Positions 19,401-56,509 of a stretch of DNA of 64,000 nt are shown here, one piece after another; positions within the stretch are counted from its first letter, which is position 1; each line of letters begins with the position of its first letter. The DNA comes from Sipunculus nudus (lineage: Eukaryota > Annelida > Sipuncula > Golfingiida > Sipunculidae), in NCBI GenBank assembly GCA_026874595.1, contig CM049311.1:78814453-78878452 (forward strand). Direction: 5' to 3'. Position numbers and translations under genes: made by a program. A model generated the notes under the pieces. The model was not told where the DNA came from and searched no databases. It saw only the letters and a program-made list of their open reading frames with translations.

Positions 19401-20268
19401 CTGACTCTGGCTTGCACTCAGACTTTGACTCGAAAAGCCTGACTCTGGCTTGCACGCAGACTTTGCCTCGAGTGGCCTGACTCTGGCTCGCACTCAGACT
19501 TAGAATCGAGTGGTCTGACTCTGTCTTGCACTCGGTCCTGGACTCGAGTGGCCTAACGCTGGCTTGCACTCGGACCTGGACTCGAGTGTATCGACGCTGG
19601 CTTGTACTCGGACTCGGGTGGCCTGACTCTGGCTTGCACTCCGTCTTTTACTCGAGTGGCCTGACTCTGGTTTGCACTCGGAGTGGAGTTGCCTGACTCT
19701 GACTTGCACTCAGACTCGGACTTGAGTGGCCTGACTCATGCTTACACTCAGACTTTCACTCGAGTTTCCTGATTTTGGCTTGCACTCAGACTTTGACTCG
19801 AGAGGCCTGACTCTGGCTTGCACGCAGACTTTGCCTCGAGTGGCCTGACTCTGGCTCGCACTCAGACTTGGACTCGAGTGGTCTGACTCTGTCTTGCACT
19901 CGGTCCTGGACTCGAGTGGCCTAACGCTGGCTTGCACTCGGACCTGGACTCGAGTGTCCCGACGCTGGCTTGTACTCGGATTCGGGTGGCCTGACTCTAG
20001 CTTGCACTCAGACTTTGACTCGAGAGGCCTGACTCTGGCTTGCACTCGGATTCGGATTCGAGAGGCCTAACTCTGTCGTGCACCCGGATTCGAGTAGCCT
20101 TACTCTGGCTTGCACTCAGATTCGAGTGACCTGACTATGGCTCGCACTCCAACTTGGACTTGAGTGGCCTAACGCTAGCTTGCACTCGGACCTGGACTCG
20201 AGTGGCTTGACGCTTGCTTGCACCCGGACTCGAGTGGCCTGACTCTGTCTTGCACACGATTTCGGATA
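13450..20268. repeat. 32/38-bp satellite, main array S3
   Basis: About 6.8 kb of unbroken satellite. Two monomer lengths dominate. The 32-bp form contains CGGACTCGAGTGGCCTGACT. The 38-bp form has six extra bases before CTCGAG or GAGTCGAG, for example TCCGACTAGGACTCGAG. The core holds an ACTCGAGT palindrome. Towards the right end (from about 19.2 kb) monomers diverge to GCACTCAGACTTTGACTCGAG types, and the array stops near TGCACACGATTTCGGATAG. Both monomer lengths leave remainder 2 on division by 3, so each minus-strand frame rotates through the monomer. Confidence 0.95.
13840..18600. repeat. higher-order repeats within S3 (2378 bp and 727 bp)
   Basis: Blocks near 13,840-16,218 recur from 16,218 with a constant offset of 2378 (for example 14,216 to 16,594 and 14,746 to 17,124). 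Inside, a 727-bp block recurs (14,746 to 15,473 and 14,913 to 15,640). A roughly 135-bp insertion near 17,410-17,545 breaks the second large copy. This nesting indicates several rounds of unequal exchange or segmental amplification. Confidence 0.75.
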
Positions 20269-20550
20269 GTGTAGACTCGACTACACCATTACCTCCCCCG
20301 CCCATATTGTCTCAGAATACTGAGCATGTGTCAGTAAATACCGTTTTTAAAAGTTATACACAACACAGTTCTTGATATACTGCCATTCGTATTTTTTTCC
20401 ATGTAATAGAACACCTCACGAATTTATATTAAATAATAACTGCTATGATATTAAGTGTAATCATTGCGTTTTCCTTATTTACATTGTAATCCTTGATTGA
20501 GCCTTCTGTATATCGTAGTTGAAACATTTAAAAGTATAAGTGAGAAAGGT
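20269..20550. other. non-satellite DNA beyond the array
   Basis: AT-rich sequence without a recognisable gene or repeat. Confidence 0.5.
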
Positions 20551-20552
20551 TT

Positions 20553-21640
20553 TTAGCTCAGCTGACAGAAAGTAGCGATCTGACCGTCTGTATATGTCTG
20601 TCCTTCCGTCCGTCGTTCCGGCTGTTCGTTTGTTCGTGAACACAGCACACATCTTAAACGTTGGCCCCGGAATCTTCTAATTTAAGATACTATGAATTCC
20701 CCGGACAACTGAAATTAGGTCACTGGGACATATATTTTCTGAGTTACGGGGCCTGTTTGAGCATCCCCGAAGAATTCAAATTTTGATACAAAAGCCTTAG
20801 TCAGGCCAGTGTCTGAATAACTAACGCATTGAAGCCATGATTCCTGCCATGCATATACATTTTTAGATTTCGACTAACTATTTTATCAATCCTGACGACT
20901 GAATGCGCTTCATCTTTTTTTCTATTTTACGCATGTTTTCTCTATACATATTTTGGGACCGTCAAATGAAGATTTCATATCAGCTTCTCAGCCACAGTTT
21001 CATCTTGTGTCCTGTGACCCTTTATATTTATTTATAATTCTTGACTATTTTAATGAGTTCCCGAAAACTGGTGGCTCCACCTGAATGTTTTTTTTTTCCT
21101 AGCATTCTTCTATGATTTTTTAGAGTGCCAAAAAAAGCAACGATGTCAGTGTCTAAGATGTGGTTTCATCTACCGTCCTGAATTCTGGTTTGTTCATTGA
21201 TCATAACCTGTTGCATCAGTTCCTGGAGACTGGTGGTGCCATCTGTATATATTTTATTTTTTCACACTTTTTTTCTTATTCTTTTTGGGTCAGCCAAATG
21301 GAAAAAATCATATCACTTTCTCAGCTGTCACTTCATCTAGTGTCTTGAAACTTCATATATATGCATTGATCATGACTAGTTTTATTAGTGCCTGGATACT
21401 GATGGTGCCACCTGTATCCTTTTCTGTTCTTCGTGCATTTTACTTCGATTATTGAGACTGTCATATTACAGCAGTTATATCAGTTTCTCCGTGGATACCA
21501 AAGAGTAGTTCACAGTCACCTTTATTCCATGAGTTATAGAGCGAAAAAGCAAAAGCCAAATTTCTTCAATACAAGACACAAATCACAACTCCACGTGCTG
21601 ACAGGCCCCACCATGTCCTCTGCGCAAACAGAAAAGTAGG
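20553..21640 (+). repeat. mollusc-type GTCCGTC-headed dispersed element, partial
   Basis: It starts TTTTTAGCTCAGCTGAC and then has GTCTGTCCTTCCGTCCGTCG words, like the head at 24,655. Degenerate units of about 160-170 bp follow, each with a TGATCAT...AGTNCCTGGANACTGGTGGTGCCA-like core, near 21,045, 21,200 and 21,370. No closing end was found. Attribution to a mollusc-wide repeat class is from general knowledge and was not checked. Confidence 0.5.
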
Positions 21641-22813
21641 TCGCTGTGACGTTACCCATATCCTCCAAGTTATTGAGTGAAAACTCTGGTGGCCACATTC
21701 CGTAAAATAACAGAACAAGAATAGAAACCGCAAGGCCCCCAAATTTTAAACTTCACATTCTATCTGGCCCAGGTAGGTCTTTTGTGGCAGGTCATTGTGA
21801 CTTATGTTTTCTGTGTAATTGAGCGAACGCCAACGTCAATCGAAATAAGATGTCAAAACGTATAAATATCCAGACATGTTCTGGTAAACTCTGGTAAACT
21901 GCTTGCAAATCCCGACTTTCGTCATTTATGACCCATATTTCTGCTATGGTCTTACGGATTGTGTCCGATTCAGCTTAGCGTCATGGCAAATGGGCCACAT
22001 GTTATACAATGACAGAACAAACATACTCTAATTGCTGTTGTTTCTATTTCTGAGGCCTACTATCATGATTTAAAACATTTACGGGTGTTCTTTGTATTTT
22101 GTCGGGAAGATTGCTCGTTCTATTTCGTCTGAGTGCAGATTAACAATTAAACTTTTGTTGAAGTGGTAGATGTCCCACTGTAACAATACCAAAAGTTCAG
22201 AAAATTACCACATCGACATCTTCACCTGCGCGGCAACCCTTCAACCCTGTTGTTAGTCCTACAGCGTTGTCAAGCAGTAAAAGTTAACAACACAAAACCC
22301 ATGCCGACCTAATTGATATTGAGACTTGTTAGTGATCGGCGAACGAGTTATAATTGTTCTCTTGAGAATATAAAATGTGGTGTGAGCTTCCGCTAAGCGG
22401 TGTCTCAATGGCTGACCTTAAGGAACCTAAAGAAGAAAGCATTGTTCTCACTTGTCTTCCAGCAAGTTTCTAACAAAACAGTGTGCGGCAAAGGAGCATT
22501 CCCTCGGCGTCATAAATTCCTCATTAAGGCCACGGGAAAAATTGTTCTACGCAATTGCTATTCCTGTTTTTCGCTCCTTTGAGCCTTCGAGCCCCAGGTA
22601 CTCGATCGGTAATTAATCTAAACATATTCATGTAGAGATAATTAAAAAATATATATTTTATTGCTTATATAATTAACAGTTCAACATCTGAAATTATTTT
22701 TTGTTTTCTGAAAGTTGACAAAATCATGCAATATTGTCTCGAAATGAAAATAAACAAAATGTCCTTAAGCATTTAGGAAGGCAGAAAAAAAAATTTTGGT
22801 CAGGCCTATTCAT

Positions 22814-24300: not shown

Positions 24301-24654
24301 ATGTACAAGAAACAAATGTCAGTACCTTTTTCAGGAATTTCATTCACACGGACACGTGACCATACCATCAGTAGGTACTGGTTATATCACTATAAGTGTA
24401 ACATGATACGTATTGTTCTTGAATTATCAGCTCGGCCAAAGGTTGTTTTACACTCATATAAGACCTAATAAAGTATACATTATTTCAAACTTTATGTTGT
24501 GTTCTTTCTGTTGGTGCTCACACTGTAAAAAGTGAGGACGAGTTTCGTGTTTCTATAAAAAAAACGCCCGCTTGTCCTACTTTTCGAATAATGTCTCTGG
24601 TGATTTGCCATTTCACCGGGAAATAGGCGTTTCAGCAATGTGTTACACATGCAT
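24301..24654. other. intergenic DNA, no feature recognised
   Basis: Short stretch between the 105-bp array and the next dispersed element. Nothing identifiable. Confidence 0.5.
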
Positions 24655-25273
24655 TTTTAGCTCAGCTGACTATAAGTCATCTGAGCTATAGTCGTGGTCC
24701 TTTGTCCGTCGTCCGGCCGTCCGTCCGTTAACAGGGCACGTTTTAAAACCGTTGGACCTACGAATCCAAAATTCTGCATACCAATAGATGTCCCCAAAAT
24801 CTCCTACCATACCAAAAATTGGGTCATTAGGACTTCATTCCTTCGAGATATTAAGGAAAAACCTCCGTTTTTCATAAAAAAAAGCCATTGTTACACTTTA
24901 AAGCTGCCTAATATCAAAACCACTGATCTGTTTTTGATCATATTTAGTATTCATATTTTTCCATACATTTTCTGTGCACATACCAAAAATTAGGTTAGTA
25001 TTGGGTATTATTTTGAAGTTATGGGCCCAAATATAATGCAGTTTCTTAAAAATCAGGAAATATATTTGCTCACTTAACATGATAATTGCTGAAGCTGGAG
25101 ACTTTTTTTCAGGAATATAGCTTTTATTCAAGTTTTCATACACCATGTCAAGTGTTGTTTACATCTGGCCCACCTAGTAATACAGTCTTCACTTGCATTA
25201 TGTAACCCACCCCAGGCAGCTTGCCTTGGCTTAGCTTGGCCACTACTAGCAGGCTTCCCCTCTGCCCTGCACT

Positions 25274-25296
25274 CCCCCCCCCCCCCCCCCCCCCCC
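25274..25296. repeat. C23 homopolymer
   Basis: A run of 23 C, a likely site of sequencing-length uncertainty. Confidence 0.95.
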
Positions 25297-25988
25297 AGCT
25301 GGTGCAAAAACTAGATGAATGTTATAATTTTCTGTATTTTATTTTATTTTAGCTATGCTACATTTTAGATTTTGTATTGTACCACCAGGGTTACAATGAT
25401 TAAAGTGCACATTTAATTGTGTCCACAAAGTGATGTATTGCTATGAAAGTGTGGATGTTCATCCGAGTGCTCATTAAAGATTTTAATTTGTTTGACTTAT
25501 AACTCATGGTTGTATCAGTTGTTACATGATACTGGCTAAATAATCAAAATTTATATTGCTGATCCTTTATTTCAGTTCATAAAATTAAACATTCCCAACT
25601 CCAGTTTGCTCCTGGTATAATATATTGGGTGTTTTGATCCTTGGATTAATTTTAACACATGTATTAGTTTCATAGTTGAGAATACTTTTCTTTTTTCCTG
25701 ATACCATTTAAAAAATTAAAATATTTAAATTTTTCCTGTTAGTGCTGTGGATTTAATTTTCACAGCATGTACACATTAGCATTTCATCTGTTAAAATCTG
25801 AAATTTGAAACTAATTGATCAAAAACTGTAGATTTTATTCAAGTTTCCAGGTACCAAGTCTTCATTGTTTACATCAGGTCAGTATAAATGCAGTGTACTG
25901 GGCAGTTACATAAAACCTTCGGTTCTGACCTACTGCCACTGTGAGTGTCTGGGTCAGGCTGGGTCAGGCAGTAATTACCACAGAGCCT

Positions 25989-25989
25989 C

Positions 25990-26021
<32 letters not shown>

Positions 26022-26092
26022 ACTGGCAGTCCAGCTCTCTCTTTCTCTCTCCCTCTTTCTCTCTCTCTCTCTCCTCTGCTTTTTCTCTTTCT

Positions 26093-26174
<82 letters not shown>
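25989..26174. repeat. CT-rich microsatellite with pure (CT)n
   Basis: Interrupted CTCTTT/CTCT repeats from about 25,989 pass into a pure CT tract from 26,101 to 26,174. The long open frames on both strands here encode only SLSL or RERE strings. Confidence 0.95.
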
Positions 26175-26179
<5 letters not shown>

Positions 26180-26695
26180 TTATTGCCTCCCTTCCTCCCT
26201 CCATCCCATTCTGTTGACAGGTACTATAAACTAAATACATTAGCTATAAATGTTGATGCAATTTAGAAATGTGATTCAACTGAAATATTCACAATCACAT
26301 GTATGTTATACTGTAAATTTATAGTAACATTCGTAAACCTGGATAAAAATTATGTAATGAAAAAAAAAAGGAATAAATGCAAATATTGTTAATTTTTTAT
26401 TGGCTCAGTAGAATGGGGAAAAAATTATTTGCTTTGTTTCTCCATCTTTCTGCCTGTTTTAAATATTTTATGTTCATGAATAAACTTTTTTTATAAGCAC
26501 TGTTGAATTAAATTTCATATCCTGTATGTATATGAAACGGGTGTTGTAACCCTCACCATCCCCTTCTTCATCCCACTGAGGCTTTGCTCCTTGGCACTGT
26601 GAACAATAGTTCTATGGCTATAGCATAAAATTTAATAATTAAAGAAAATATCTACAGAGAGACAGAGGCGTTGTAACTCTGTTCATAACACAACA

Positions 26696-26711
26696 CCCCC
26701 CCCCCCCCCCC
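26696..26711. repeat. C16 homopolymer
   Basis: A run of 16 C within the dispersed element. Confidence 0.95.
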
Positions 26712-27544
26712 ATCAAGTCATTGCACCTGTAGAGTGGGGACGTGATGGCAACTGTATACATATCATAAAATTGATAAAAAAGGTTTGGATCTCATCAGAC
26801 AAATGTGTAAACTGTTGACCTGTCAACAGCTTATCAAAAATTTAACCAATGGAAAGGCATGGTCAGATCTCAAATATTATTTGCAACATTTTCTTCAATC
26901 ATATAAACCAACCATGGCCCAACTTACCTCTTCCTCTCAAACTTTATCTACATTTCATCATATTTTTAATATTTTAACCTTCTAGGTGGTTCAGTACTGT
27001 TGACCATTTGTCCATAGGTACTTATGTACATGCCAGAAATTATGTCAATATTGTGTAATATGTAGACGTGAGGGTCATCAAAATAATGTACCTTGTCATG
27101 ACCGATCTTGTCAAGATATCATGTCATACAGTCACAAATTCATAAATCCCCTCATCAGCAAAGTTAATCATAACCTTGTATATGTCAAATTGAAAGCTTG
27201 CAGTTTTCCATACACTATAGATCCTTCAACAAATGGCCTTATCATCATTATACCACTGCTTAGTATACTGTCATTGCATTCATATTTGCTCAAATAAATT
27301 GTTTTTTTTTTCGACCCCTCCCAAATAAATAAAAAATAAACCACTATATTGTACTCCATATTAATCAATCAGTCAGATTATTTCATATATCATTTACTCA
27401 CATATTACATTATATTCCTTTATAAAAGCCCAACATGACCATGATATTCATAAGCTTTTTCTACTCAATATAGTATAACAATGGTGATACATTTATAGTC
27501 CAATCATGATCAGCTGAGCGCCGTGACCCATGGGTCCCTTGTTT

Positions 27545-31300: not shown

Positions 31301-31376
31301 ACGTGGCCACGAATTACTAATTCGTGCACAGAAATTACTAATTCTTGCGCACGAATTCTTGGTGCGAAAAAATAAA

Positions 31377-31550
31377 TTTCCAAGGTGGAAAATATATTTA
31401 TTAATTCGTGCGCACGAATTACTAATCAGTGCGCACGAATTACTAATCCGTGCGCTCGAATTACTAATTCGTGGCCACGAATTACTAATGCGTGCGCACG
31501 AACTACTAGGTATGAAAAATATATTTCCAAGGTGGGAAAATATTTATTTT
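31377..31550 (+). repeat. foldback-like element, left arm
   Basis: Five consecutive 21-bp units run from 31,403 to about 31,507 (variants CAGTGCGCACG, CCGTGCGCTCG, TCGTGGCCACG, GCGTGCGCACG), flanked by AAGGTGG spacers. On the plus strand they read a 7-residue period (HELLIRA-like). This is a by-product of the 21-base period. Confidence 0.85.
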
Positions 31551-32964: not shown

Positions 32965-33080
32965 TGTAATTCGTGCGCACGAATTAATAACTCGTGCGCA
33001 CGAATTAGTAGCCAATGAGCATTGAGCCAGCAACATAAGAGAGCTGTTCTCATTGGTCACTAATTCGTGCGCACGAATTA
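32965..33080 (-). repeat. inner palindromic units of the foldback-like right arm
   Basis: AATTCGTGCGCACGAATT units at about 32,970 and 33,060 are separated by a segment in which ATTGGCT and AGCCAATGAG form a further inverted repeat. They extend the right arm inwards and have no exact partner on the left. Confidence 0.7.
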
Positions 33081-33082
33081 AT

Positions 33083-33245
33083 AATTTTTTTTTTCCACCT
33101 TGGAAATATGTTTTTCACACCTAGTTATTCGTGCGCACGGATTAGTAATTCGTGGCCACGAATTAGTAATTCGTGCGCACGGATTAGTAGTTCGTGCGCA
33201 CGGATTAGTAATTCGTGCGCACGAATTAATAAATATTTTTTACCA
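33083..33245 (-). repeat. foldback-like element, right arm
   Basis: A CCACCTTGGAAATATGTTTT spacer is followed by five 21-bp palindromic units (33,125-33,232) and AATAAATATTTTTTACCATG, in the reverse orientation to the left arm. Confidence 0.85.
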
Positions 33246-34644
33246 TGTCGTCTCCCGGGCTCCGTAGCTCTTCGAGCATAAATGGTATAATATTTTATTA
33301 TATTCATATTTCAGGTGCATAGGAATGCGCTCTCTGATTAAAGTTTTGACAATACAGCGGATGTCTCTGAGTCGGGATGAGGTTAAACAAGGCTTAATTA
33401 AAAGAAATAAATCATTGCTGTAAATCTATTAGCAATAAACAATGGTTACTGTCAGTGGTGTCTCCATTAGTGTGGAACATGCCCCCCCCCCCCCCCGTAT
33501 CCGACATTGTATATAATACTGAGGAAAAAATTTCCATGAAAATTATTGTATGAAGGATTTCAGGTTTAGGAATAGAAGTATCAAATACGTCTTGTATTTG
33601 TATATACCCTTGTGTTTGTTATGTCGTAAGTTAATCGACACAGCATATTGTCGCGGTGAACAGGCACCAAATTAAAGACATGTTTCAGATGTCTATGAGA
33701 TATAATGACGCCACTACGCGACCCGGAAGTTGTTTCAAGATGTACCGCGGAGGCCTGTTCACAAACACGTCCTATTTCTTCAGCCAGCGTGAAGATTATG
33801 TGTTGGCCTAAATTATCATTTAAGAATTGAGGGATCTCCACTGTAACTGATACCAACGTAACTGTCTGTTACATCATTCTTCAAGGCAGGTTTTTCGTCG
33901 TAAAGATTCAGCCATATAAAAAATGTGAATTGTTGCCATGGATACGGAACCGGTAAGACATTTTTATGATTTTTTCAGTAGTTTATTCAGCAACTTTCTT
34001 CGCCTACTCTGTTTTTTTTTCCTAGCTCCGAAAGGTCTTCCACTAAAAATATCGTGACGCCTTTCAACAATATCTTTGTCAGCATGAACAGTACCAAACG
34101 TTTACTCAGTTAATGGGTAGTAGTCCTGGAGCCAATATTAGAATTTTTAGTTTTGCTGCACCCCGTCATTATTTTAGTTTGATGCCATTTTCTGTTTAAG
34201 TTATTCATAGAGATCAGATTTCAAAACATTCCCCCTCTGGCAAAGTGTCCAAAAGGGTTGTATTCGGCAATTTTATAAACTAACCTTGGTACATATATTT
34301 TTGAAAATATTGGTTAATGTTATTTTGAATATGAGGAGGCAGGATTAGTCATAATCATCAATTTGATGAGCCAAATAGATAAAAAAATGTTATTTTTGTC
34401 ATCCAACTTATTTCAAGCCCTTAAGTTTTCAATTTTAAGATACTTAAAGTAAGTAAATAAGTGATTATTGGTTTGTATGTAGGGTATACGTCAGCTTTTG
34501 CGGCCGAGTAAAAACGTTGATATACATTCTATAAACGGCATGGGGCAATATGTTTGTGATGCTTTAATTCGACTAAATGAAGTTAAAAATGCAAATTTTT
34601 TAGTTTCAATATGAATTGTAAAAAGGAATTTACAAAAAAATAAA
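33246..34644. other. intergenic DNA with C15 tract
   Basis: A C15 tract lies at 33,482-33,496. One 91-codon minus-strand frame (33,581-33,856) has balanced amino-acid composition and is listed separately. Nothing else recognisable. Confidence 0.5.
33581..33856 (-). CDS. unrecognised 91-codon open frame
   Basis: The frame starts MVSVTVEIPQFLNDNLGQHI and contains RVCEQASAVHLETTSGSRSG and HLKHVFNLVPVHRDN. Its composition is more protein-like and its GC content higher than the surrounding DNA, so it could be a decayed exon or element fragment. I recognise no domain, and there are no splice sites or neighbours that support it. A chance frame is the simpler view. Confidence 0.15.
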   Translation of the reverse strand: MVSVTVEIPQFLNDNLGQHIIFTLAEEIGRVCEQASAVHLETTSGSRSGVIISHRHLKHVFNLVPVHRDNMLCRLTYDITNTRVYTNTRRI

Positions 34645-34690
34645 CAAGTGGCCCATGGGCCATGAAGCTCAGCTAAGTTTGATTGGGTGC
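34645..34690 (-). repeat. end of a GTCCGTC-type dispersed element, reverse orientation
   Basis: AAACAAGTGGCCCATGGGCC followed by ATGAAGCTCAGCT is the reverse complement of the type of end seen at 27,505-27,542. The LTR at 34,691 inserted directly beside it. Confidence 0.5.
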
Positions 34691-35550
34691 TGTTACAGGT
34701 GCAATATTTATTGTGTGACACGGGCGGAACTTGTGTTGTAGTGCCCGCGTCTAGCTGCGCATTGCATTCTCAGTTGAATCCCTACTGGTTGAACTCTCAT
34801 TGTTATGCTAGCTTGGGGCTTTCTCGCCTGGCCGAGCCGGGTCGGGCTCACGTGTGGACCCTGGTATGTAGAGACACAGCGATGTTTTTCTAGATGATTC
34901 CTGTAACGCGTGTTTACTGTGTGTTGTGTTGGATTCTTTAGACTGTTCGAGAAGTGGAATATTCTCGGCTTGGGGCGAGAAGTTATAAAAAGGGGGCTGT
35001 GTTTTAGAGCCGGGAGAGAGGTGAAAGAATATTCCAGCGGACACAGACGTGTGTATGTCAGTTTGTGGAACCTGTCCGATTATCCAGTAATTTCAGGGAT
35101 TCTACTGTTACTAACTCTATACAATTTAATGCTGCCTGCCTCAAGTTTACTTTCTGGATTGTTACAAGAGCTTAACATTAGACTGTTTTTCTTCGAGAGG
35201 ATTTGTGTGGAATTTTCATCTGGCATATACATTTATAAGGACCTATCGTTTTGACAGTGGTGGTATCCAGGTACTGTGCACTTTGTTTATTTTACTGTGT
35301 GATTGTATTGATTTGCTGTTATACTGCTGTTAAACTGGTACATTGTATTGAATTAGTGTATTGTAATGTTAGGGTTGTTTTATGAATAAATTATGGTAAT
35401 TTTTTAACAAAAAAAAAACACTGACTTCTTTATTCATTCACTTTATTCATTTCACGCTGCCTAGTGTTACAGAATCTGATTTGTTTATCTCCCTGACAAA
35501 ATTTATGTTCATCACGCACACGTGATCTGTCGATATTAGGTTCCGTAACA
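34691..35550 (+). mobile_element. solo LTR, copy 2, with GTGC target duplication
   Basis: It begins TGTTACAGGTGC and ends TTCCGTAACA. The 4 bases GTGC lie on both sides (34,687-34,690 and 35,551-35,554), so this LTR is a complete insertion unit. It carries TATAAAAA (34,984), AATAAA (35,385) and the same GGGGCTGTGTTTTAGA and TCACGCTGCCTAGTGTTACA blocks as copy 1, but is 74 bases longer. No primer-binding site or coding region adjoins. A Ty3/gypsy-type origin is plausible from the 4-bp duplication but unproven. Confidence 0.8.
34984..34991 (+). promoter_or_regulatory. TATA box in LTR copy 2
   Basis: TATAAAAA is placed as in copy 1, just before GGGGGCTGTGTTTTAGA. Confidence 0.6.
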
Positions 35551-35574
35551 GTGCTTATTTCTTTTATTAATGTT

Positions 35575-36165
35575 ATATATTGCTTTTGTCACCCGCTCCG
35601 TGGATGCGGGGGATATGGTTTTGGGTTTGTCTGTCTGTCTGTCTGTCTCTCTGTCCGTCCATGAGGTTTCGTTTCCGAGCGATAACTTTCCTAAATATTA
35701 TCCGATTTCATTCAAATTTGGGGTCAGTGATTGCTTTCATGCTTACCTTGGTTGGGATTGGTTTTGGAGTGTCTGGCTTCTGTCTGTCTGTCTGTATGTC
35801 TGTCACTTTGTCTGTCCGTCTGTCAGATTTTCGTTTCCCTGCTATAACTTTCCTAAATATCATGTGATGTCATTCAAATTTTAGTCAGTAATTGCTCTCA
35901 TGCTTACCTTGGTTTAGATTTGTTTTGAAGTGTCTGGCTTATGTCCCTCGGTCTGTCTGTCACTCTGTCAGGTTTTTGTTTCTGTGGGATAACTTTCCTA
36001 GATGTTATCCGATTTCATTCAAATTTTGGTCTGTGATTGCTCTCATGCATACCCTGGTTGGGATTTATTTTGGAGTGTCTGGCTTCTGTCTGTCTGTCAC
36101 TCTGTCTGTCTGTCCTTTATCAAGCATGAAAAACAACAACATCCCAAAGTGGGGGACATTAATTC
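35575..36165 (+). repeat. CTGT-rich tandem repeat, about 150-bp units
   Basis: Each unit has a GTCTGTCTGTCTGTC block, then ATAACTTTCCTAAATATTAT, then CATTCAAATTT and GCTTACCTTGGTTGGGAT. The ATAACTTTCCTA word recurs at about 35,683, 35,844 and 35,990. This resembles the head of the mollusc-type dispersed elements. The open frames read SVCLSVCL strings and are not genes. Confidence 0.8.
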
Positions 36166-36664
36166 AAAGAATTTGCTTATTGAGAATAGCTTCTGGCTAA
36201 TGTTACGATGTTGAAAAAAGGACGGAAAATAAAAATGTCAGGGTTGATAGGAAACCTGCCGAGGACACCCCTGGATTTCACAATAGAAGGTTCCATGGAA
36301 AATGGATACAATTTGTACCCTGTCTGTCTTGGTGCAAAAAATCAAGTTTCACCATGACCTAATTTTTGGTTTCCAAAGAGATTTTTCTTTAGAAGATTCT
36401 TGAATTAACAGACATGATTTGTGCCTGTCTGACATTCATGATGCTCATATGACATCTTTTTCCTATAGGTCGCAGAATATAGGTCGTCATGACCTAATGT
36501 CATGCTTCCAAAGACAACTGCCTAGTGCACATTGGATGTCATGATAGAAGATTCTAGGCCTATTAGATACAATTTGAACCCCATCTGACTGTCTGGGTGC
36601 TCAAAACCATTTTTTCATAACCAATATTTTTATAAAAATGTTTTTCCTATAGGTTGCAGAATAT

Positions 36665-36679
36665 AGGTCACCATGACCT
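36665..36679. promoter_or_regulatory. perfect IR3 (ERE-type) palindrome
   Basis: AGGTCACCATGACCT: two inverted AGGTCA half-sites separated by 3 bases. Confidence 0.55.
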
Positions 36680-37134
36680 ACTTTTTAAGATTTTCTAGGA
36701 CATTTCCCTAGGACCTTCCTGAATTTATTGTTAGAAGGTTTTAGGCCTAATGGATACAATTTCTGCACTGGCTGACTGTCTGGGTGGTTATATGACATCG
36801 TGTTTATAGTTCTCAAAATAAAGGTCAAGGAGACCTTATTTCAAGTTCCCATGAACATTTGCCATGGACATCTCAGAATGTTAGATCAAAAGATGCTAGG
36901 TCTAACGTTTACGATTTGTGACCCGTCTTACTTTCTGGGTGCCCAAAATCATGTTTTCGGCCTGTAGGTGGCAAAATGAAGGTCACCATTACCTAATTTC
37001 AGGTTTCCAGGGAGTTTTGCCTAAAACCTCCAGGATATTGTATTAGATGATTCTAGGCCTTACATCTTCGATTTGTGCATATCTAACATTCAGGGTGCCC
37101 ATGTGACATCTTTTTCCTAAAGGTTGCAGAATAT

Positions 37135-37149
37135 AGGTCACAGTGACCT
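37135..37149. promoter_or_regulatory. perfect IR3 palindrome, vitellogenin-ERE sequence
   Basis: AGGTCACAGTGACCT, identical to the classical vertebrate vitellogenin ERE core including the CAG spacer. Confidence 0.6.
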
Positions 37150-37291
37150 AATTTTAGGTTTCCAAAAATATTTGCCTAGAACCTCCCTAAATGTTACGTA
37201 AGAGGATTTTAGGCCAATTGGATGAAAATGTGCCCCGTCTGACTCTTTGGGTGCTCAAAATCATGTTTTTGGCCTATAGGTCGCACAATGT

Positions 37292-37306
37292 AGGTCACCA
37301 TGACCT
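37292..37306. promoter_or_regulatory. perfect IR3 (ERE-type) palindrome
   Basis: AGGTCACCATGACCT, CCA-spacer class. Confidence 0.55.
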
Positions 37307-37608
37307 AGTTTCAGGTTTCAATGGAGATTTCCAAGACCCATCAAGAATGTTGCGTTAGAAGATTCTAGGCCAAACAGATACAATTTGTGCCCATCTGACA
37401 TTCAGGGTTTTCTTATAACATCTATTTCCTTTAGGTCAAAGAATATAGGTTACAGTATCCTAATTTCAGGTTTCCAAAAACATTTGCCTAAGACTTCCCT
37501 AAATGTTACGTTGGTGCTTTCTAGGCATAATGGATACAACTTGTGCCCTGTCTGACAGTCTTGGTGCTCAAAATCGTGTTTTCGGCACGTAGGTCACAAA
37601 ATATAGCT

Positions 37609-37623
37609 AGGTCACCATGACCT
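37609..37623. promoter_or_regulatory. perfect IR3 (ERE-type) palindrome
   Basis: AGGTCACCATGACCT, CCA-spacer class. Confidence 0.55.
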
Positions 37624-37757
37624 AATTCCAGGTTTCCAAGGAGCTGGAATTTTCCAGGATATTGTGTTAGAAGATTCTAGGCCTGCCGAATTCGATTTGT
37701 GTCATCTGACATTTCGGGTGCTCATATTACATCTTTATCCTATAGGTCGCAGAATAT

Positions 37758-37772
37758 AGGTCACAGTGACCT
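37758..37772. promoter_or_regulatory. perfect IR3 palindrome, vitellogenin-ERE sequence
   Basis: AGGTCACAGTGACCT, the second exact copy of the vitellogenin-type core. Confidence 0.6.
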
Positions 37773-38217
37773 TATTTTAGGTTTTAAGAAATATTTGCTT
37801 ACGACCTCCCTAAATGCCATGTAACAAGATTCTAGGTCAATTGGATACAATTTGTCCCCAATCTGACTGTCTGGGTGCTGAAAAGCATGTTTTCGGCCCG
37901 TAGGTCACAAATATATGTCACCATGCATGACCTAATTTCAGGTTTCCATGGAGATTTTTACCAAAATCTTCCCAGGATGTTGCGTTAGAAGATTCTTGGC
38001 ATAACAGATACGATTTGTGCAAATCTGGCATTCAGGGTGTTCTTATGACATCTTTTTCCTATGGCCGCAGTGACCTAATTTCAGGTTTCCAAAAACATTT
38101 GTCTAGACCTCTCTAAATGTTACGTTGAAGCATTCTAGGCATTATGGATACAATTTGTGCCCCGTCTGATAGTCTTGCTGCTTAAAATCGTATTTTCGGC
38201 CCGTAGGTCACAAACAT

Positions 38218-38232
38218 AGGTCACCATGACCT
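38218..38232. promoter_or_regulatory. perfect IR3 (ERE-type) palindrome
   Basis: AGGTCACCATGACCT, CCA-spacer class. It is the last unit of the array. Confidence 0.55.
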
Positions 38233-38345
38233 AATTTTAGGTTTCCAAGAAGATTTGCCTGTAACTTTCCAGGATTTTGTGCTAAAAGATTCTATGCCTA
38301 CCAGATTCGATTTGTGCCCATCTGACATTCAGAGTCCTCATATGC

Positions 38346-39479
38346 CATCAAGTGTCAACATAAACACAGCGCGTGGGACTTGGTACATCGCTGAGCCAAA
38401 ACACCTGCCAATCGAGAGATGCCCTGACTGACTTTGCCCACAAAATGTAATACATGTTCCCGCAGGCTGAAACATCGTGTGCTTAGGCTCTCAATAGGAC
38501 CTCCGGTCACGCGGCCTTTTTTATGGTAAACAAACACACATAGACTGTGTTTACTAACACACAGAGCCGCTTGCAAGTTACTGAGACCATGTGCTGAGAT
38601 GGTTTTGGTGGGAAACTTTTGTATAAACCAAAACTAAATTGAAAGTGTGAAAGGACAGGAATAATATTGCCCCTGATTATGTCCCTTCAATTAAAACACT
38701 TTTTCTATATATTTTGTTGAAACCTCCAGACACCTGGCAAAGAGTTTCTATATTTATTAGGCAATGAGTATTCCACGAGACTGGTATAGATTACTTTTGT
38801 TTCCGCTTTCCAGTCCTTTTACATTTTGGTAAAAAATAGAATGTTGCATGAATATATTTTAATGGTTTTCGTTTAAAACATTTAAAGTTGATATTTTATT
38901 CTCAATATATATGTTTTAAGGTCTGGAATTCAACAGAATCCAAGCCCAAATCCTGATTTAGATTGTGAACATACAGAAAAACAACTAATGAACAAGCAGC
39001 TCATTCATTTGAATAAATTAAAAAACTATACGCCTGTTCATATCTCAGACAAAGTCATGAGTTGGATCAGGGAGCTGGATGGTTTGAATGGAGAGGCATT
39101 AATTGTTATTTGGAAATCGAGACTTTGGTGACATGATCGGGGCTGGTCAAACCTAGATCTCGATCAGAATTTGGTCAGGATGATAACTGCAACAATCTAA
39201 TTTGATGAAACTAAACGTTGTCAGAAATTTCAAGACACAAATGATTTTTTTACATAAATTGTGTAAGCCAAGTTTAAAAGACGGGTTTGACGTACTTGTC
39301 AGTATGCATAGCGACTGATTGAGACAGATGCAGGTGAAGGTAATCCATTAATTATTCCTATTCAATGACTATTTCACTTTGCTGGATATATGAGAGAAAA
39401 TGCCTCTTCTTAAGTCTCAAACCGTATTTTTTTAACACTTGGAAACAAGGGAAAAGAACTTCACTAAAACTGCATTACT

Positions 39480-39785: not shown

Positions 39786-42640
39786 TCATAAAAAGGATTT
39801 ATATAGTTGTTTAAAACGCTTAACATCAGTTACGTGTCTTAAATTATTGGGAAGTTGATTCCAGTAATGCGGGCCTGAGTAAAGAAAGCTTGATTTAAAT
39901 CTATGAGTTCTCGGTTTTATAATGGCAAGATTGCCACTGGTCGTGTGTCGTGTATTGTATGGGTTACGTGCATATTCGAGACCATGTCTAAAAGTAGGAG
40001 GTGCATCACCAAATAAACATTTAAAAACTAAAAGATTTACAAAATAGCGATATCTCTGTTCCACGGTCATCCAACCTAACTGAGTTATTAATGATGCTGG
40101 AGAAGTATTTATATCGAAGTTTTTTGTAACAATACGGGCAGCTTTATTTTGGAGTCTCTGGATTTTTGACTTGTACGTTTTCGAGCATCCACCCCAAACA
40201 GAAATACAGTAATCAATATGGCTTTGAATAAGAGAATGATATATAAGTTTTAGAGTTGTTGTTTGAAGAAACTTGCTAAGTCGGTAAAGGACATGTAATT
40301 TTGTGATAATTTTATCGTTAATATAATCTACATGATCATTCCATTTTAAGCGGGAGTCGACGATTAAACCCAAAAGTTTCGTGTTATTTTCGGGAATTAA
40401 TGTAACATTATTAATGTTAATGTTTTTGGTAAAATTAGAGTTATGGCTAAATATCACAATACTCGATTTAACAGGGTTGATACATAAATGATTTACTCTG
40501 AATCATTTTTGGGCCATGTCAATCTTGCTTTGTTAATGGCTGATTGCATTATCGGCGGAATCAGCACAGGTAAGCAGTGTGATATCGTCAGCATAAAGTA
40601 TACACTTGTTATTCATAAAGCTCGGGAAATCATTCATATAAATAAGAAATAGTATAGGCCCTAGTACTGTGCCTTGGGGAGTACCGATGTTTACGGTAGA
40701 AGTTTTCGAAATTGAACCACAGGAGGAAACGAACTGGCGCCTGTCGGATAAATAAGAACTGAACCACGCGAGCTCTACATTTTCTATTCCATACTTCTGG
40801 AGTTTTTCGAGCAGTATAGAATGATCGAGGCTATCAAAACCCTTCCTTATGTCCATAAAGCACGCAGCTGTAATGTTATTATTATCAAGGTTAGTAAGAC
40901 ATTCATCGACTAGCGTATATGTAAGGCTAAATGAGTTGATCGATTTGGTAGGTATGCGAACTGTTTATCAGTAAACATTTGATTTTTATTAAGGTGTGCG
41001 ACAACATGGCATTTTACAAAATGTTCTAAAATTTTCGGGACATGTCCAGTGACAGAAATAGGACGATAATTGGTAGGGTCACACTTGGTACCAGAACCCT
41101 TGTAAATTGGAGTGATACGCGCAGTTTTCCAGTCCTGAGGAACAATGCCAGTTGGAAGAGAAAGATTAAACAGATGAGCCAAGCATGGAGAAATCACAGA
41201 TGAAGCTATTTTAAGAAAGAATCCAGACATCCCTAACACATCATCCTTTAATGTTGCATCTAATTCCATTGAACGAGAATGGACAAAACGCGTAGAAACA
41301 CGAGGAAAATAGAACGTTTTTTGCAGAAGAATTGATAATAAACGAATTTGTTTCAATTTTCCCTTGGAAATCTTCGTTTATAAGTTTTCCCACAGAACTA
41401 AAGAAATCGTTGAATTTATCACAGTCGATATCAGTATTTGTTTTTTGCGTGTTCTTATTTGAAGGGATTACTTGCTTTAGCGCCTTCCAAATTGTACTAG
41501 GTTTAGAGACGTTTGAACGGATTAGGTCAGAATAGTATCGAGAGCGATTTTTGCGAATTTCACGAGTAACGGTATTACGAAGACGTCTATATTCATTCCA
41601 GTCAGAAGCACTGTTTGTCCGTCTTGCTTTTTTATTCGCAAATTCACGTGCATATATTAAATTTAGTATTTTATCAGTCACCCATCTATTGGGGGTAGAT
41701 TTTACTCGTCGTTTATAGAACGGAGCATTATTATTGCAGATTTTTACAAATTCAGATTGCCAAATCTTCCATGCCAAATTAAGATCAGTCATGTTAGGAA
41801 TTAAAGATGACATGAAAAAAGATGAACATATTTCTTGAATGAATTTATCCTTGTTAAAAAGTCTTAAGTTACGACAGTGTACATATTTTTGATTCTTCTT
41901 TCATCATTTTGTTTCTTTAAAATTGTTGCCGTTAAAAAGTGATCACTCAGGGTCAACTGGTAAACTTTAGAACTGTAATGCATTTCAGGATTGGATGTAT
42001 AAATAAGGTCTATCAGTGTTTTTGAATGTTTGGTAATACGAGTAGGTGTAGTAATTAGTTGTTTCATCCCAAATAACCGTTCTGCTAAATCAAGTTTACT
42101 TGATTTTTACCTGTTAGGCTGCAAGTAATCAATATTAAAATCTCCTAACAAAATGACATACTTAGAGATCTTAAAAGCTTGACCAATAACATCTAGCAAA
42201 TCATCAATATATTCACTTGATGCATTCGGAGGCCTGTAAACGGATCTTATTAAAATAGTTTTCATTCCGAGAGAAATTTTCACCCATACACTTTCAATGC
42301 TACCAGACACTGGCTGAAATACTTGCGGTTTTAGGGATGTTAAAATATACATAATTACACCTCCGCCATGTCGGTGTCTGTCGTGTCTAAAATGCACATA
42401 ATGTTCTATGGACACCTCAGAATCAAGTACATGCTTGTCAAGCCAAGACTCGGTTAAAGCTAAAACATGTGGCCTGAAACGAAAGCACATTTGGCGAATC
42501 TCATCAACTTTCGGTATTAAACTGCGTACATTAAGATGCGCCAAAATTGTACCCTTAGCTTCTAATAAGCTTGGCAACTCATCAGCTAATGAGTACACGT
42601 TATTTATTATCGGAAGCTTTGGGTCGTTATTGAGTACGGT
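39786..42640 (-). pseudogene. ORF2 of retrotransposon A: endonuclease/reverse transcriptase
   Basis: In life this enzyme nicks chromosomal DNA and reverse-transcribes the element RNA. The pieces, in minus-strand order, are as follows. 42,598-42,107 is the APE-type endonuclease, with LNVRS, TESWL and GDFN. 42,067-41,864 has its C-terminal SDH motif. 41,813-41,241 is the linker. 41,356-40,910 is the start of the RT, with TARITPIYKG and NYRPISV. 40,856-40,533 is the RT palm, with MDIRKGFDSLDH, GTPQGTVLGP and YADD. 40,457-39,786 is the C-terminal region, with HIDYCISVWGG and LQNKAARIVTK. The catalytic motifs survive, but the frame shifts between pieces and a stop precedes the last one. Confidence 0.85.
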
Positions 42641-51997: not shown

Positions 51998-54979
51998 CTA
52001 TGAAAAATTATATGGCATAAATTGCTTGTACAATGATTTAAACTGGCAGAGACTGGTTGCAGATTTGACACTTACAGGTAAAGAATTCCAGTGGATGGGA
52101 CCAGCATATGCAAGACTTGCTTTGAAGGATTCTCTGTTTGGTTTAGGTAATGATAAATTGAAGCCCTGAGAAAAACGAGTATTATATGCACTATTAACAC
52201 GGCTGAACGTATGCGTAAGAGAGGGAGGGACATTACCAGACAAACATTTAAAGACCATTAAAGAAACAAAATATTGGTATCTCTGTTTAACATTCATCCA
52301 ATCCAATTTTGCAATCAATGATGTAGAGGATATATTGGTATCATAAGTTTTAGTAACGATTCTAGCAGCTCTATTTTGAAGTTTTTGGAGTTGTAATAAA
52401 TACGTTTTGGAGGAATTACCCCAGACAGATATACAATAATCAATGTGACTCTGAATTAAGGCATTGTAAAGTGTGTTTAAGCTAAAGACATCTAAGGTTT
52501 TACTTAATCTGAAAAGGAGACCTAGTTTTGATACTATTTTGTCGCACACCAGTTGAATATGTTTTTTCCATGTAAGACCAGCGTCGATGATAACACCTAA
52601 AAGCTTTGTGTGGTCAACCGGCATCACTGTAATGTTATCCATGGAGATGTTCAGTTGATTTCCATTGGTTTTAGACTTGGGGCCAAATAATATGAATGAT
52701 GATTTTTGGGGATTTATACTCAGTCGATTCTCTCTAAACCATTTAAGTGCAATTTCGAGATTTACTTGTAATGACTCTATAGCTTTAGCGGCTGAATTCG
52801 CTGAAGAATAAATTGAAATATCATCAGCATAAATGACGCATTTCTCACTGAGGAACATTGGAAGATCATTTAGATAAAAAAGGAAAAATATAGGTCCAAG
52901 GACAGTGCCCTGTGGGGTACCTATGTCCAAGGTGCGTGGTTCTGAAAGCAATCCATTAGAATAAACCACTTGCTTACGATTAGACAGGTAGTTTTCGAAC
53001 CACATAAGCGGTATACCTTTTATGCCATAGTCGCTCATTTTTGTAAGTAAGACAGTATGATCAAGGCTATCAAAACCTTTTTTTACATCGAGGAAACATG
53101 CGGCGGTAACATTATTGTTATTAAGACTGATTAAGCATTCGTCAATTATGCTGTGCAAGGCAAATGAAGTTGAACGATTAGGAAGATAAGCGAATTGTTT
53201 ATCCGAAAACAGATTATTACTTTCAAAAAACGTGATGAGGCGCGATTTAACGAATTGTTCTATTATTTTTGGCACATGGCCTATAACTGAGATCGGTCGG
53301 TAGTTATTTGGATCATCCTTACATCCAGATCCTTTGTATATAGGAGTGATCCTAGCGGTCTTCCAATCTGCTGGAAACTCGCCGGTTTGAAGTGAGATGT
53401 TAAATATGTGGGCTAATGGAGCTGAAATATAAGGTGCGGCTATCTTAAGGATAAATCCTGACATTCCCAGTATATCTTCTTTCATACTGGAGTTTACTTT
53501 CAACAACTGTGATAAAACAAATTGACTCGAAACTGAATTAAAATCAAAAGATTCCAAATTCGGGTTACCAATATGATCGCAGGTAAATATTGTTTTCGGA
53601 AATTTATCGTTAATATTTTTTCCAACAGAAGTAAAGTAATGGTTAAATTTATCAGGGTCAATCTTTCCGCTTTCTTTATTCGAGGAGGTTTTCGAAGGCA
53701 GTATGTGTTTTAAAGCTTTCCACACACAACCAGGGTTGGAGCCATTTTTTTGTATCAGCGTGGCATAATACTGGCTACGAGTGGATCTGATAAGATTTGT
53801 AACATAATTTCGCTGATGTCGGTACGCAGACCAGTCATTACTGTGATTTGTTCTTAATGCGTTCCGATGTGCATAATCACGCAAGTGAATCTCATTAAGT
53901 AAATCATTATTGAACCATTTATTTTCGCGAGCTTTGGTGCGACGTCGAATAAAAGGCGCGTTGTTATTGGAAATTCTCAGAAATTCATAGCGCCACATTT
54001 CCCAGGCTAAGTTTACATCAGAAAGTTGCATAATTCTTGAAAAAAAATTGGATTTCGATAATTCATCGATAAATTTGTATTCATTGAATTTACGAAGGGT
54101 ACGGTAATATCCGGATTTTGTAACTGTGACCCTAGGTGGTCTATTCAAAACGGTAGTCACAAGAAAATGATCACTTATACATAAAGGATGAACTTTCACA
54201 TTTGAATGCATGCTAGGATGTGAAGAAAATATCAAGTCGATCATTGTAGAGGTGAGCTGAGTAATACGAGTAGGCTCTGTTACAAGTTGTTTAAGACCTA
54301 AGATTTTTTCGAGCAAGTCCAGTTTACTAGCAATATAAGTTTCAGAGCGTAAGCAGTCTACATTGAAATCGCCAAGTAATACAACACGTTTGAATGAGTT
54401 AAGGGCAGAAGCAAGTAAATCGAGTAATTCATCAATGTAACTGGAACTGGAATTAGGCGTTCTATATATAGAACCGATTAAGACCGGTTTTCTCCCCAAA
54501 ATTATTTTAACCCATACACATTCAACGACATTTGAGTTTAAAGTGACCAACTCCGGTTTTAACGACGATAACACATACGTGAGAACTCCTCCGCCATGCC
54601 GATTCCTGTCTGATCTAAAAATCGTATAATCATCAATTTGTATCTCTGAATCAAAAACGTGGTTATCTAACCATGATTCTGTTAATGATAAAACATGAGG
54701 GTTTAAACTAGAACACAAGAGGCGAATCTCCTCTATTTTGGGTAGCAAACTACGAACGTTAAGATGACCTAATATGGTACCCTGGTTAGCTAGTCGATAT
54801 TGCTTAAAATCAGAATATATACTTGGGTTTTGAGACAAAATAGAAGGAAGAGAGGGTGGAATTTCATTATCGGGTGTAACTGGTTTGGTGCTAGGTAATG
54901 CTTGATAAATATCTGATAAGTGAGAGCTTGTTTGTTCTGTAATACAAACGTTAGGACTTATAACCTGATCAGAGTACAC
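51998..54979 (-). CDS. ORF2 of retrotransposon B: endonuclease/reverse transcriptase
   Basis: 993 residues, no internal stop. APE-type endonuclease at about 65-275: LNVRS (73-77), catalytic TESWL (100-104), HGGG (128-131), GDFN (203-206) and SDH (269-271). Reverse transcriptase at about 535-800: TARITPIYKG (541-550), NYRPISV (559-565), palm motif LDVKKGFDSLDH (630-641), GTPQGTVLGP (687-696) and catalytic YADD (717-720). The C-terminal region has HIDYCISVWGN and LQNRAARIVTK. All catalytic residues I know are present. It follows the esterase frame by about 33 bases. The first Met was taken as the start, and an ORF1-linked start is possible. It would act in target-primed reverse transcription in the nucleus. 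Confidence 0.92.
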   Translation of the reverse strand: MYSDQVISPNVCITEQTSSHLSDIYQALPSTKPVTPDNEIPPSLPSILSQNPSIYSDFKQYRLANQGTILGHLNVRSLLPKIEEIRLLCSSLNPHVLSLTESWLDNHVFDSEIQIDDYTIFRSDRNRHGGGVLTYVLSSLKPELVTLNSNVVECVWVKIILGRKPVLIGSIYRTPNSSSSYIDELLDLLASALNSFKRVVLLGDFNVDCLRSETYIASKLDLLEKILGLKQLVTEPTRITQLTSTMIDLIFSSHPSMHSNVKVHPLCISDHFLVTTVLNRPPRVTVTKSGYYRTLRKFNEYKFIDELSKSNFFSRIMQLSDVNLAWEMWRYEFLRISNNNAPFIRRRTKARENKWFNNDLLNEIHLRDYAHRNALRTNHSNDWSAYRHQRNYVTNLIRSTRSQYYATLIQKNGSNPGCVWKALKHILPSKTSSNKESGKIDPDKFNHYFTSVGKNINDKFPKTIFTCDHIGNPNLESFDFNSVSSQFVLSQLLKVNSSMKEDILGMSGFILKIAAPYISAPLAHIFNISLQTGEFPADWKTARITPIYKGSGCKDDPNNYRPISVIGHVPKIIEQFVKSRLITFFESNNLFSDKQFAYLPNRSTSFALHSIIDECLISLNNNNVTAACFLDVKKGFDSLDHTVLLTKMSDYGIKGIPLMWFENYLSNRKQVVYSNGLLSEPRTLDIGTPQGTVLGPIFFLFYLNDLPMFLSEKCVIYADDISIYSSANSAAKAIESLQVNLEIALKWFRENRLSINPQKSSFILFGPKSKTNGNQLNISMDNITVMPVDHTKLLGVIIDAGLTWKKHIQLVCDKIVSKLGLLFRLSKTLDVFSLNTLYNALIQSHIDYCISVWGNSSKTYLLQLQKLQNRAARIVTKTYDTNISSTSLIAKLDWMNVKQRYQYFVSLMVFKCLSGNVPPSLTHTFSRVNSAYNTRFSQGFNLSLPKPNRESFKASLAYAGPIHWNSLPVSVKSATSLCQFKSLYKQFMPYNFS

Positions 54980-55011
54980 ATATACTGAATTCCTTAGTAA
55001 ATAATCATCTG

Positions 55012-55752
55012 TTATATGGATGTTTTTGTTTGATCTCCGTGAAAATTTTGAGATTCCATTAGGCTGTCTTCACTAGTGTACATCGATTTTTGAAAATATC
55101 GAACGCTAGAGGCGATTTGTCCGGTCATTGCAATTGTGCCGAATTTACTAAAATGTATACCATCATATCGATAGTAAGACCTTTTCAAAGGTGGTGAGCA
55201 GTCACAAAATATGATATTCTCAAGGGATTCACATCTCTTTCTCAGTTCATTGTTTATAATGGTGATTTTTCTATTTACAATGCTGTCATGTAAATATTTA
55301 GGGATTGCCAAACTGACAATTTTACAGTTGGTGCTGCTTCTAGTGTTTTGCAGCATGTCAGTATATTTGTTAACAAAGGTTAGGGTGTCATCACGATAAA
55401 CGTTGTTTGTGCCTACTTGAACCACTAAACAATCATCATTTGACAAATCTTTTGCAGTTTTTGGTAGTTTGGACAAAGCATTATCAAGTGTGAGCCCACT
55501 AGTACTTAACACAGAAATTTTCTTGTCACATAAATGGTTAGCCACACTGGAATAGGAGTCTCTCACTAAGGAATCACCAAATATTAAGACACGACTTTTT
55601 GATTGAATATCAATAAGTCCATTTGTATTGACATAAGCGGAAGAACTTGACTCTGCTGAGCTTTGTAGACCAAGGTCTTCTGTAGGTGTTGCTTTGTTAG
55701 TGTCACCATTTTTTTTGTTTCTCTGCGTGATAAGGTACAGGGAAGGTCTCGT
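55012..55752 (-). CDS. SGNH esterase domain of ORF1, retrotransposon B
   Basis: An open frame from about 55,752 to 55,012. The hydrolase blocks are VLIFGDSLVRDS (GDS nucleophile), the STSGLTL glycine, VGTNN, and YDGIHFSKFG (the Asp/His pair), so the catalytic set looks complete. No ATG lies near the start of the frame; the region before GDS is a Ser-rich linker. It overlaps the PHD frame by about 50 bases at the A8 run (55,709-55,716). In element A the two domains share one frame, so this is probably the second half of one ORF1 protein, cut off by a one-base length change in the A run, or read by frameshifting. Confidence 0.8.
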   Translation of the reverse strand, partial: TRPSLYLITQRNKKNGDTNKATPTEDLGLQSSAESSSSAYVNTNGLIDIQSKSRVLIFGDSLVRDSYSSVANHLCDKKISVLSTSGLTLDNALSKLPKTAKDLSNDDCLVVQVGTNNVYRDDTLTFVNKYTDMLQNTRSSTNCKIVSLAIPKYLHDSIVNRKITIINNELRKRCESLENIIFCDCSPPLKRSYYRYDGIHFSKFGTIAMTGQIASSVRYFQKSMYTSEDSLMESQNFHGDQTKTSI

Positions 55753-56509
55753 TCAAAGATGGCCAGTCGTCACAAGAAGTGTTCGCTCTATTAGCAGAAG
55801 AATTATCACGTTTTCTGATAGTCCCAGTAGAGTGACGTCTTGAGTGGGATGATACAACTTCAGACCAGGCTTGTTTGTTTGATGAATCCTGCAGAGTTGT
55901 CGACATGTTAGGTCTCTCACTGGAGGTTTTGGATATACTATGGTTCAATTCTGCACATTTACAGGATTTGTCAGACAATTCTCGGAGGAGTTTTTCAGTA
56001 GTTGACTGTACTTTAAGACATTCTTGTAATTCTTCTTTCATTAATTTGTTTTCCTGTCTGAGGGACTGAAGTTCACAAAGAATATGTTTAAGTTGCGTTG
56101 GGATGTTTCGGCAGTTTTTACAATTCCATATCAGGCCTTCATCCCCAGGCTGTATGTTCATACATGTCAAGTGAAACCAGTTGTTACAAGAACAACACCT
56201 GATCATCTCTCCCTGTGAGATATTGTTGTGTTTACAGTTGCGAATATCACATATTAGATTGTTTTGTGAGTCATCTGTTGACGTATCAATGGTAATATCG
56301 CTGCTCTTGCACTGAGGAGAGGGGTTGTCAACATTTTGTGACGGAGCAGAGATTTGGTTATTTTTGTTGCCATAAACGTTTGGCCATTTTTTATTTGCAC
56401 ACTGTGAACAGTATAGATCATCATCGATTCTTATTCGAACACTGGCATTTTTCTTATTACAGTTCACACATTTGCTATGTTTGTTTGGCTTTGTCATGAT
56501 TGAAGTCAC
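55703..56509 (-). CDS. ORF1 N-terminal part: PHD zinc finger and coiled coil, retrotransposon B
   Basis: 268 residues. An N-terminal zinc-binding pair CVNC (14-17) and CSQC (34-37) is followed by a PHD finger (about 87-133: CDIRNC, CCSC, WFHLTC, NCKNC). A coiled-coil stretch (about 140-185, LQSLRQENKLMKEELQECLK) and a basic Ser/Arg tail (SHSRRHSTGTIRKRDNSS) come next. The frame ends KQKKW-stop just after the A8 run. PHD plus esterase ORF1 proteins are known from CR1-like elements and are thought to bind RNA or chromatin. Start: first Met; Met5 is equally possible. Confidence 0.8.
   Translation of the reverse strand: MTSIMTKPNKHSKCVNCNKKNASVRIRIDDDLYCSQCANKKWPNVYGNKNNQISAPSQNVDNPSPQCKSSDITIDTSTDDSQNNLICDIRNCKHNNISQGEMIRCCSCNNWFHLTCMNIQPGDEGLIWNCKNCRNIPTQLKHILCELQSLRQENKLMKEELQECLKVQSTTEKLLRELSDKSCKCAELNHSISKTSSERPNMSTTLQDSSNKQAWSEVVSSHSRRHSTGTIRKRDNSSANRANTSCDDWPSLNETFPVPYHAEKQKKW

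Follow-up and report, generated by a model that had tools for sequence, protein, structure and literature searches.

Within a 64,000-nucleotide stretch of Sipunculus nudus DNA (the window), perfect inverted repeats resembling estrogen response elements (EREs) recur at regular intervals in a tandem array, which raises the question of what keeps them there. A preliminary description, made from the sequence alone, had offered three options, a receptor sink, a spread enhancer or a coincidental property of the repeat. The last fits best, and the first two are of low probability. In our reading, which we hold at a probability of roughly 0.8, the array is the central tandem block of a non-autonomous Helentron (HINE), and a conserved box in each unit is kept by an action on the box or the element and not by a receptor dimer.

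Palindromes and array in the window

Pattern matching identified six exact AGGTCANNNTGACCT sites inside an array of 13 units, each of them conforming to the formal ERE pattern, AGGTCA n3 TGACCT. All six had been placed correctly in the preliminary description, which had also noted that two of them carry the second spacer form, CAG. Its near-matches at 36481 and 36980 are indeed one change away; the one at 37447 has three changes and falls outside the two-mismatch list, and a one-change site at 36822 had been missed. The palindromes, found by pattern match and without an assigned strand, are:

36665..36679, exact palindrome, CCA spacer
37135..37149, exact palindrome, CAG spacer
37292..37306, exact palindrome, CCA spacer
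37609..37623, exact palindrome, CCA spacer
37758..37772, exact palindrome, CAG spacer
38218..38232, exact palindrome, CCA spacer
36481..36495, one-change palindrome
36822..36836, one-change palindrome, absent from the preliminary description
36980..36994, one-change palindrome

Allowing up to two mismatches, 14 matches were observed in the window, compared with a mean of 2.4 and a maximum of 8 in shuffled windows (n=100). Of these, four fall in a second, older copy of this kind of element (20717-21803); one, at 54756, is located elsewhere. A chance origin of the run was rejected, as the window shuffles and the genome-wide reversed control given below were both far lower. TRF reported array periods of 155 and 312, and the alternation of CCA- and CAG-type units described previously, with a dimer of about 315 bp, was seen with a dimer of ~312 bp (TRF, MAFFT). 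The array is slightly wider than the 36240..38345 first proposed, extending from about 36232 to 38349.

The element that contains the array

The window array is the interior of a dispersed mobile element and not a free satellite. A common left end, starting (A)ACAAGTGGCCCATGGGCC, stands before the array in eight of nine sister loci; L048 gave no match to it. Seven of the eight extend beyond this end, and there the sequence differs, by eye; L049 begins inside the end. The other end, which follows the array and in its full form consists of ACGG repeats and GCTATAGCTCAGATGACTTACAGTCAGCTGAGCTAAAAA, is present in seven of the nine loci, with L048 cut within the stem-loop and L050 without most of the microsatellite; it is absent from L054, and L049 runs off its locus. 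A stand-alone satellite was rejected, since the sister loci have common ends. The window copy starts at 34643, contains two inserts and lacks the opposite end; its parts are listed here, with unit sequences of the array given on the + strand throughout:

34643..34690, minus strand, outer end of the element, its 3' end (RF) in HINE orientation (sister-end profile; inverted repeats in the end consensus)
34691..35547, no strand assigned, insert 1, another dispersed repeat (the element resumes beyond it; matches to loci L035, L031 and L030)
35584..36180, no strand assigned, insert 2, a segment with a 145-bp TGTC-rich tandem repeat (TRF; matches to L034; the element resumes at 36180-36181)
36181..36231, minus strand, inner RF part adjoining the array (end profile positions 80-149 at 36180-36248, E 6e-12)
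36232..38349, minus strand, array, 13 tandem units of ~155 bp whose two types alternate, flanked on either side by partial units (TRF, MAFFT, nhmmer)
38350..38691, no strand assigned, unrelated dispersed repeat abutting the array (matches to L033)

A profile built from seven sister ends matches the window at 34643-34719 (E 7e-13), where the outer end includes a 14-bp palindrome, TGGCCCATGGGCCA, at 34649-34662 and the subterminal inverted repeat (subTIR) GCTCAGCT at 34667-34674. After insert 1 the element resumes at ~35548-35583 (profile E 0.011; BLAST to L050 at 35551-35582, E 5e-5), and a profile search to the right of the array gave no match to the microsatellite and stem-loop end (LF). By eye, TGTTAC may form a terminal inverted repeat of insert 1, and a duplication of 4-5 bases was noted.

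As judged from sequence, both termini resemble those of HINEs such as the bivalve pearl and Cg_HINE elements. The two end consensuses contain subTIRs, GCTCAGCT and AGCTGAGC, that are exact over 8 bp, where published ones measure 11-15 bp. In the LF consensus, the stem TAGCTCAG/CTGAGCTA is an inverted repeat complementary to the 5' subTIR, and in the consensus of the 3' end the TGGCCCATGGGCCA palindrome stands 6 bases from the terminus. The LF of the sisters also carries an ACGG microsatellite (GTCC on the other strand), an end that the window copy is without, and a run of T at its boundary on the HINE strand; stem and microsatellite are absent or incomplete in some copies. Between the ends, in the window (MAFFT) as in the sister loci, lies the central satellite-like array. 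Read on the other strand, the order of subTIR, inverted repeat, GTCC microsatellite, array, subTIR and palindrome is that published for HINEs.

Genome counts cover the 1.43-Gb assembly of 153 contigs, in which we identified 13,608 exact palindromes compared with 93 for the pattern read backwards. The LF-end 16-mer TCAGCTGAGCTAAAAA occurs 34,471 times in exact form, 17,359 times on one strand and 17,112 on the other (control 0), and a 321-base array query gave at least 170 genome matches. The listed places of this 16-mer are on the + strand only, though L017 and L021 hold minus copies, and no conclusion on strand was drawn from them. Twenty 10-kb stretches were taken at fixed positions on C1-C4 (hereafter position-chosen); they gave 16 end-profile matches at E < 1e-7, spread over 12 of the stretches, and one exact palindrome. 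Profiles in which the palindrome was masked assigned 26 of 29 palindromes, sampled from 20 stretches within the initial 2.3 Mb of contig C1, to monomers of this repeat, and left three outside. The earlier proposal of a dispersed repeat carrying many perfect IR3 sites is thus borne out. One mobile-element superfamily can give rise to 'regularly spaced EREs' in such a genome, so that computational searches for EREs in these animals would be overwhelmed by copies of the element. Two core patterns had no matches in viral contigs, a set from which records of the window's own genome were possibly left out.

Among the matches listed for the family B 19-mer and for the one palindromic 19-mer counted, both described below, neighbouring copies on contig C1 tended to lie on the same strand (19/22, null 13.1, p 0.002; 53/89, null 44.1, p 0.035). 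The tendency is weak and post hoc, with p 0.055 and 0.12 after thinning copies to 50 kb; it would be of interest if tied to replication direction.

The common terminus, the subTIRs, the stem-loop and palindrome ends, the GTCC/ACGG microsatellite and the very high copy number lead to the HINE reading, and the element is a new example of an already known kind. Its spread would have proceeded by rolling-circle replication with the Rep/helicase of an autonomous Helentron.

A similar layout is known from Cg_HINE, a group of non-autonomous Helentrons that carry Cg170-type arrays in Crassostrea gigas and in the passages cited have a 5' subTIR with an inverted repeat, a GTCY/GTCC-type microsatellite, a central array, and a 3' subTIR and palindrome (PMC7492417, PMC8268682). 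According to the same passages, the oyster satellitome is dominated by monomers of 160-180 bp, and some Cg_HINE families have two conserved segments in common within otherwise differing monomers (PMC7492417, PMC8268682). A perfect IR3 of AGGTCA, as in the Sipunculus core box, goes unmentioned there for Cg_HINE, and the two are likened by description. The pearl family, DTC84 and BIV160 of bivalves are likewise described as repeats of ~160 bp, found also inside mobile elements, with two conserved motifs in otherwise diverged monomers and, in DTC84, a conserved palindrome near the repeat junction (PMC5139131). Identity with BIV160 by name was not confirmed in a comparison by primers and description, in which its two printed primers (PMC5139131) showed, by eye, no clear match here. 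Arthropod DINE-1/HINE elements are described with subTIRs, an inverted repeat near the 5' subTIR, a 3' stem-loop, T-rich boundaries, a microsatellite and tandem repeats, but occur in other hosts and have subTIRs of 12-15 bp as opposed to the 8 bp exact here (PMC4067079). The open-licence papers searched yielded nothing joining estrogen response element, satellite DNA and mollusc, or Helitron, nuclear receptor, binding sites and bivalve, and the five core strings were not found in print in it.

Conservation of the core box with and without the palindrome

Monomers of the window's own family (family A) were taken from the window and the nine sister loci, and 114 remained after 18 of 132 were dropped at <80% coverage. 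In the per-column alignment of units that the preliminary description had proposed, the palindrome columns are 94.4% conserved compared with 86.2% for the rest of the unit, and the palindrome is intact in 70 monomers; the lack of any such excess, named there as evidence against a receptor site, was thus not what we observed. A held-out set of 76 monomers, leaving out the window and the stretches that had brought the loci in, gave 94.9% and 85.6%, with 47 palindromes intact. The suggestion that flanks have diverged more than palindromes therefore holds on average, but the best held-out window not overlapping the palindrome reaches 94.0%. The palindrome is the left part of a core box of ~50 bp in each unit, which continues into CCTAATTTCAGGTTTCCAAGGAGA. 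The difference stays when CpG columns are left out (p 0.007, with columns treated as independent).

The half-sites are better conserved than the spacer in the held-out set (94.9% and 83.3%), which is the pattern a dimer site would show. This, together with the excess of exact sites over the reversed control, favors the view that a nuclear receptor (ER, ERR or some other IR3 binder) truly uses the palindromes, which would then be kept by binding and serve as spread enhancers or as a sink. The rank of the palindrome window points the same way: it is first of 143 in family A, in the held-out set too, when the homologous window of family B comes only 11th of 162. Against this view, no significant link was seen between losses of the two half-sites (p 0.29). 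Nuclear receptors are animal genes, and 67 zf-C4 exon matches were found in the genome. The first zinc finger at C3:3612660-3612830 equals that of ERR gamma chain 8ifo_A in 33 of 34 residues, and no ER first finger was recognised among 33 of the 67 translations. The DNA-binding domain of a snail ER binds GGTCAnnnTGACC in EMSA without ligand (PMC3778743). This and the ERR-like finger count in favor of true receptor sites, the lack of a recognised ER finger among those 33 against them.

The strongest evidence against retention by a receptor comes from sister family B, with a period of ~335 bp, in which the homologous 15-mer GGGTAACAGAGACCT forms no palindrome and differs from AGGTCACAGTGACCT by three changes in two half-sites, none of them compensated. 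Exact copies of the family B 19-mer GGGTAACAGAGACCTAATT number 34,357 (control 0), compared with 3,357 of AGGTCACAGTGACCTAATT, the sole palindromic 19-mer counted. Position-chosen stretches provided 30 family B monomers, reduced to 26 by dropping three of L027 and one short monomer; 17 have the exact 15-mer, seven a near form and two the palindrome or something close to it. The 12 homologous columns are nonetheless 95.2% conserved compared with 84.5% for the rest, so that a core without an intact palindrome is no less conserved. In a third family (C), AAGTCGCAAAGACCC or AAGTCCTATTGACCC stands at the place of the core and other parts of the unit differ much. Terminal modules, the only units that the following two samples see, had the exact palindrome in one of 16 cases when found by the end of the element alone in position-chosen stretches, and in none of 20 at the first 20 of 100 listed TCAGCTGAGCTAAAAA places. 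The latter sample is one region (C1:96-270 kb), mostly of the third family and including L094 without a recognisable core, and among the matches listed the region holds five exact palindromes elsewhere than in the sampled modules.

The core box is hence conserved with or without the palindrome, and the ERE form belongs to some lineages. That the site is kept because it is palindromic was rejected on the equally conserved, broken family B core and the scarcity of exact forms in terminal modules. Since the same core is equally conserved in palindrome-less sister repeats, it is probably not kept for receptor binding, and we regard receptor-retained sites as improbable. Binding of the palindrome by a receptor in vitro is plausible on the comparisons above, but is probably not what keeps the box.

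In a tree built from 34 terminal modules after removal of their cores, in which supports are mixed, four of six GGGTAAC-type rows group together (94/96) among palindromic rows, and the other two, L035_9118 and L044_5191, fall outside their clade. Palindromic rows are spread over several lineages, though many of these rows had been picked for their palindrome. The tree is compatible with an older palindrome lost in the GGGTAAC-type lineage, and the ERE form may predate the divergence of the two families, with a loss in the family whose core is the more abundant. A related idea, to which we give little credence, is that the ancestral unit carried a real ER/ERR-type site tying the element to receptor-expressing cells, for instance the germ line, and that palindromic families still use it while one family lost it and spread otherwise. 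Were this true and the 29-palindrome sample typical, the palindromic families would hold most of the ~13,600 perfect sites, a receptor sink of unusual size. Palindromic and non-palindromic sister families form a natural control for receptor use of element-borne sites. The ISX element of Drosophila miranda is a Helitron. In the passages cited it offers a precedent for a mobile element that spreads protein-binding sites, with function and selection reported, whereas in Sipunculus the family whose core is more abundant has a broken site (PMC4384637).

Helentrons are thought to pass through single strands. A hairpin formed by the palindrome in a single-stranded rolling-circle intermediate could act in pausing, template switching or array expansion, and the family A core folds into a 7-bp stem with a 3-base loop at -5.2 kcal/mol (ViennaRNA; DNA parameter set assumed). 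The family B core hardly folds (-0.4 kcal/mol), yet is abundant and present in arrays, and we consider a hairpin function very unlikely.

As the box is recognisable in three families, palindromic or not, its keeper acts on the box or on the element and not through a receptor dimer. This could be a cis-acting site that serves in copying or in maintaining the array; it could also be slow mutation together with homogenisation. The latter overlaps with the more doubtful, though by no means negligible, alternative that the box is unselected, either as a slowly mutating segment or because few masters and array homogenisation mimic conservation; our preferred reading leaves the cause open, and the odds given to the readings do not sum to one. 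In line with an unselected box, monomers within one element are not independent, and the conservation differences amount to 8-11 points and are not absolute. Against it, the box is conspicuous in both family A and family B and can still be recognised in the divergent family C, and the family A difference survives the removal of CpG columns with the proviso given above.

Other repeats in the window

A second, older HINE copy was observed at ~20550-22003, on the + strand in HINE orientation, with an LF at 20542-20658 (E 2e-9), a weak RF at 21963-22003 (E 3e-4) and decayed ERE-like cores at 20717, 21507, 21638 and 21789. A third copy at 24650-27543 has both ends (LF 24650-24739, RF 27449-27543) and AAGTCCTAATGACCC at the place of the core. 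Retrotransposon remains at 51998-56509 include an ORF of 992 aa with RVT_1 and endonuclease domains, adjoined by ORFs with GDSL and PHD matches below the cut-off, and another endonuclease fragment is located at 42107-42598.

TRF also identified a large 32-bp tandem array at 13457-20252 and further ones at 7015-7423, 8912-9693 and 11179-11960. The last two have identical TRF figures and lie 2,267 bases apart, and ORFs of 139 aa recur at 7999, 10269 and 12536, which points to a repeated block of ~2.27 kb. In addition, two arrays of a 21-bp unit, at 31308-31508 and 32967-33232, show the palindrome CGTGCGCACG in most of their TRF consensuses.
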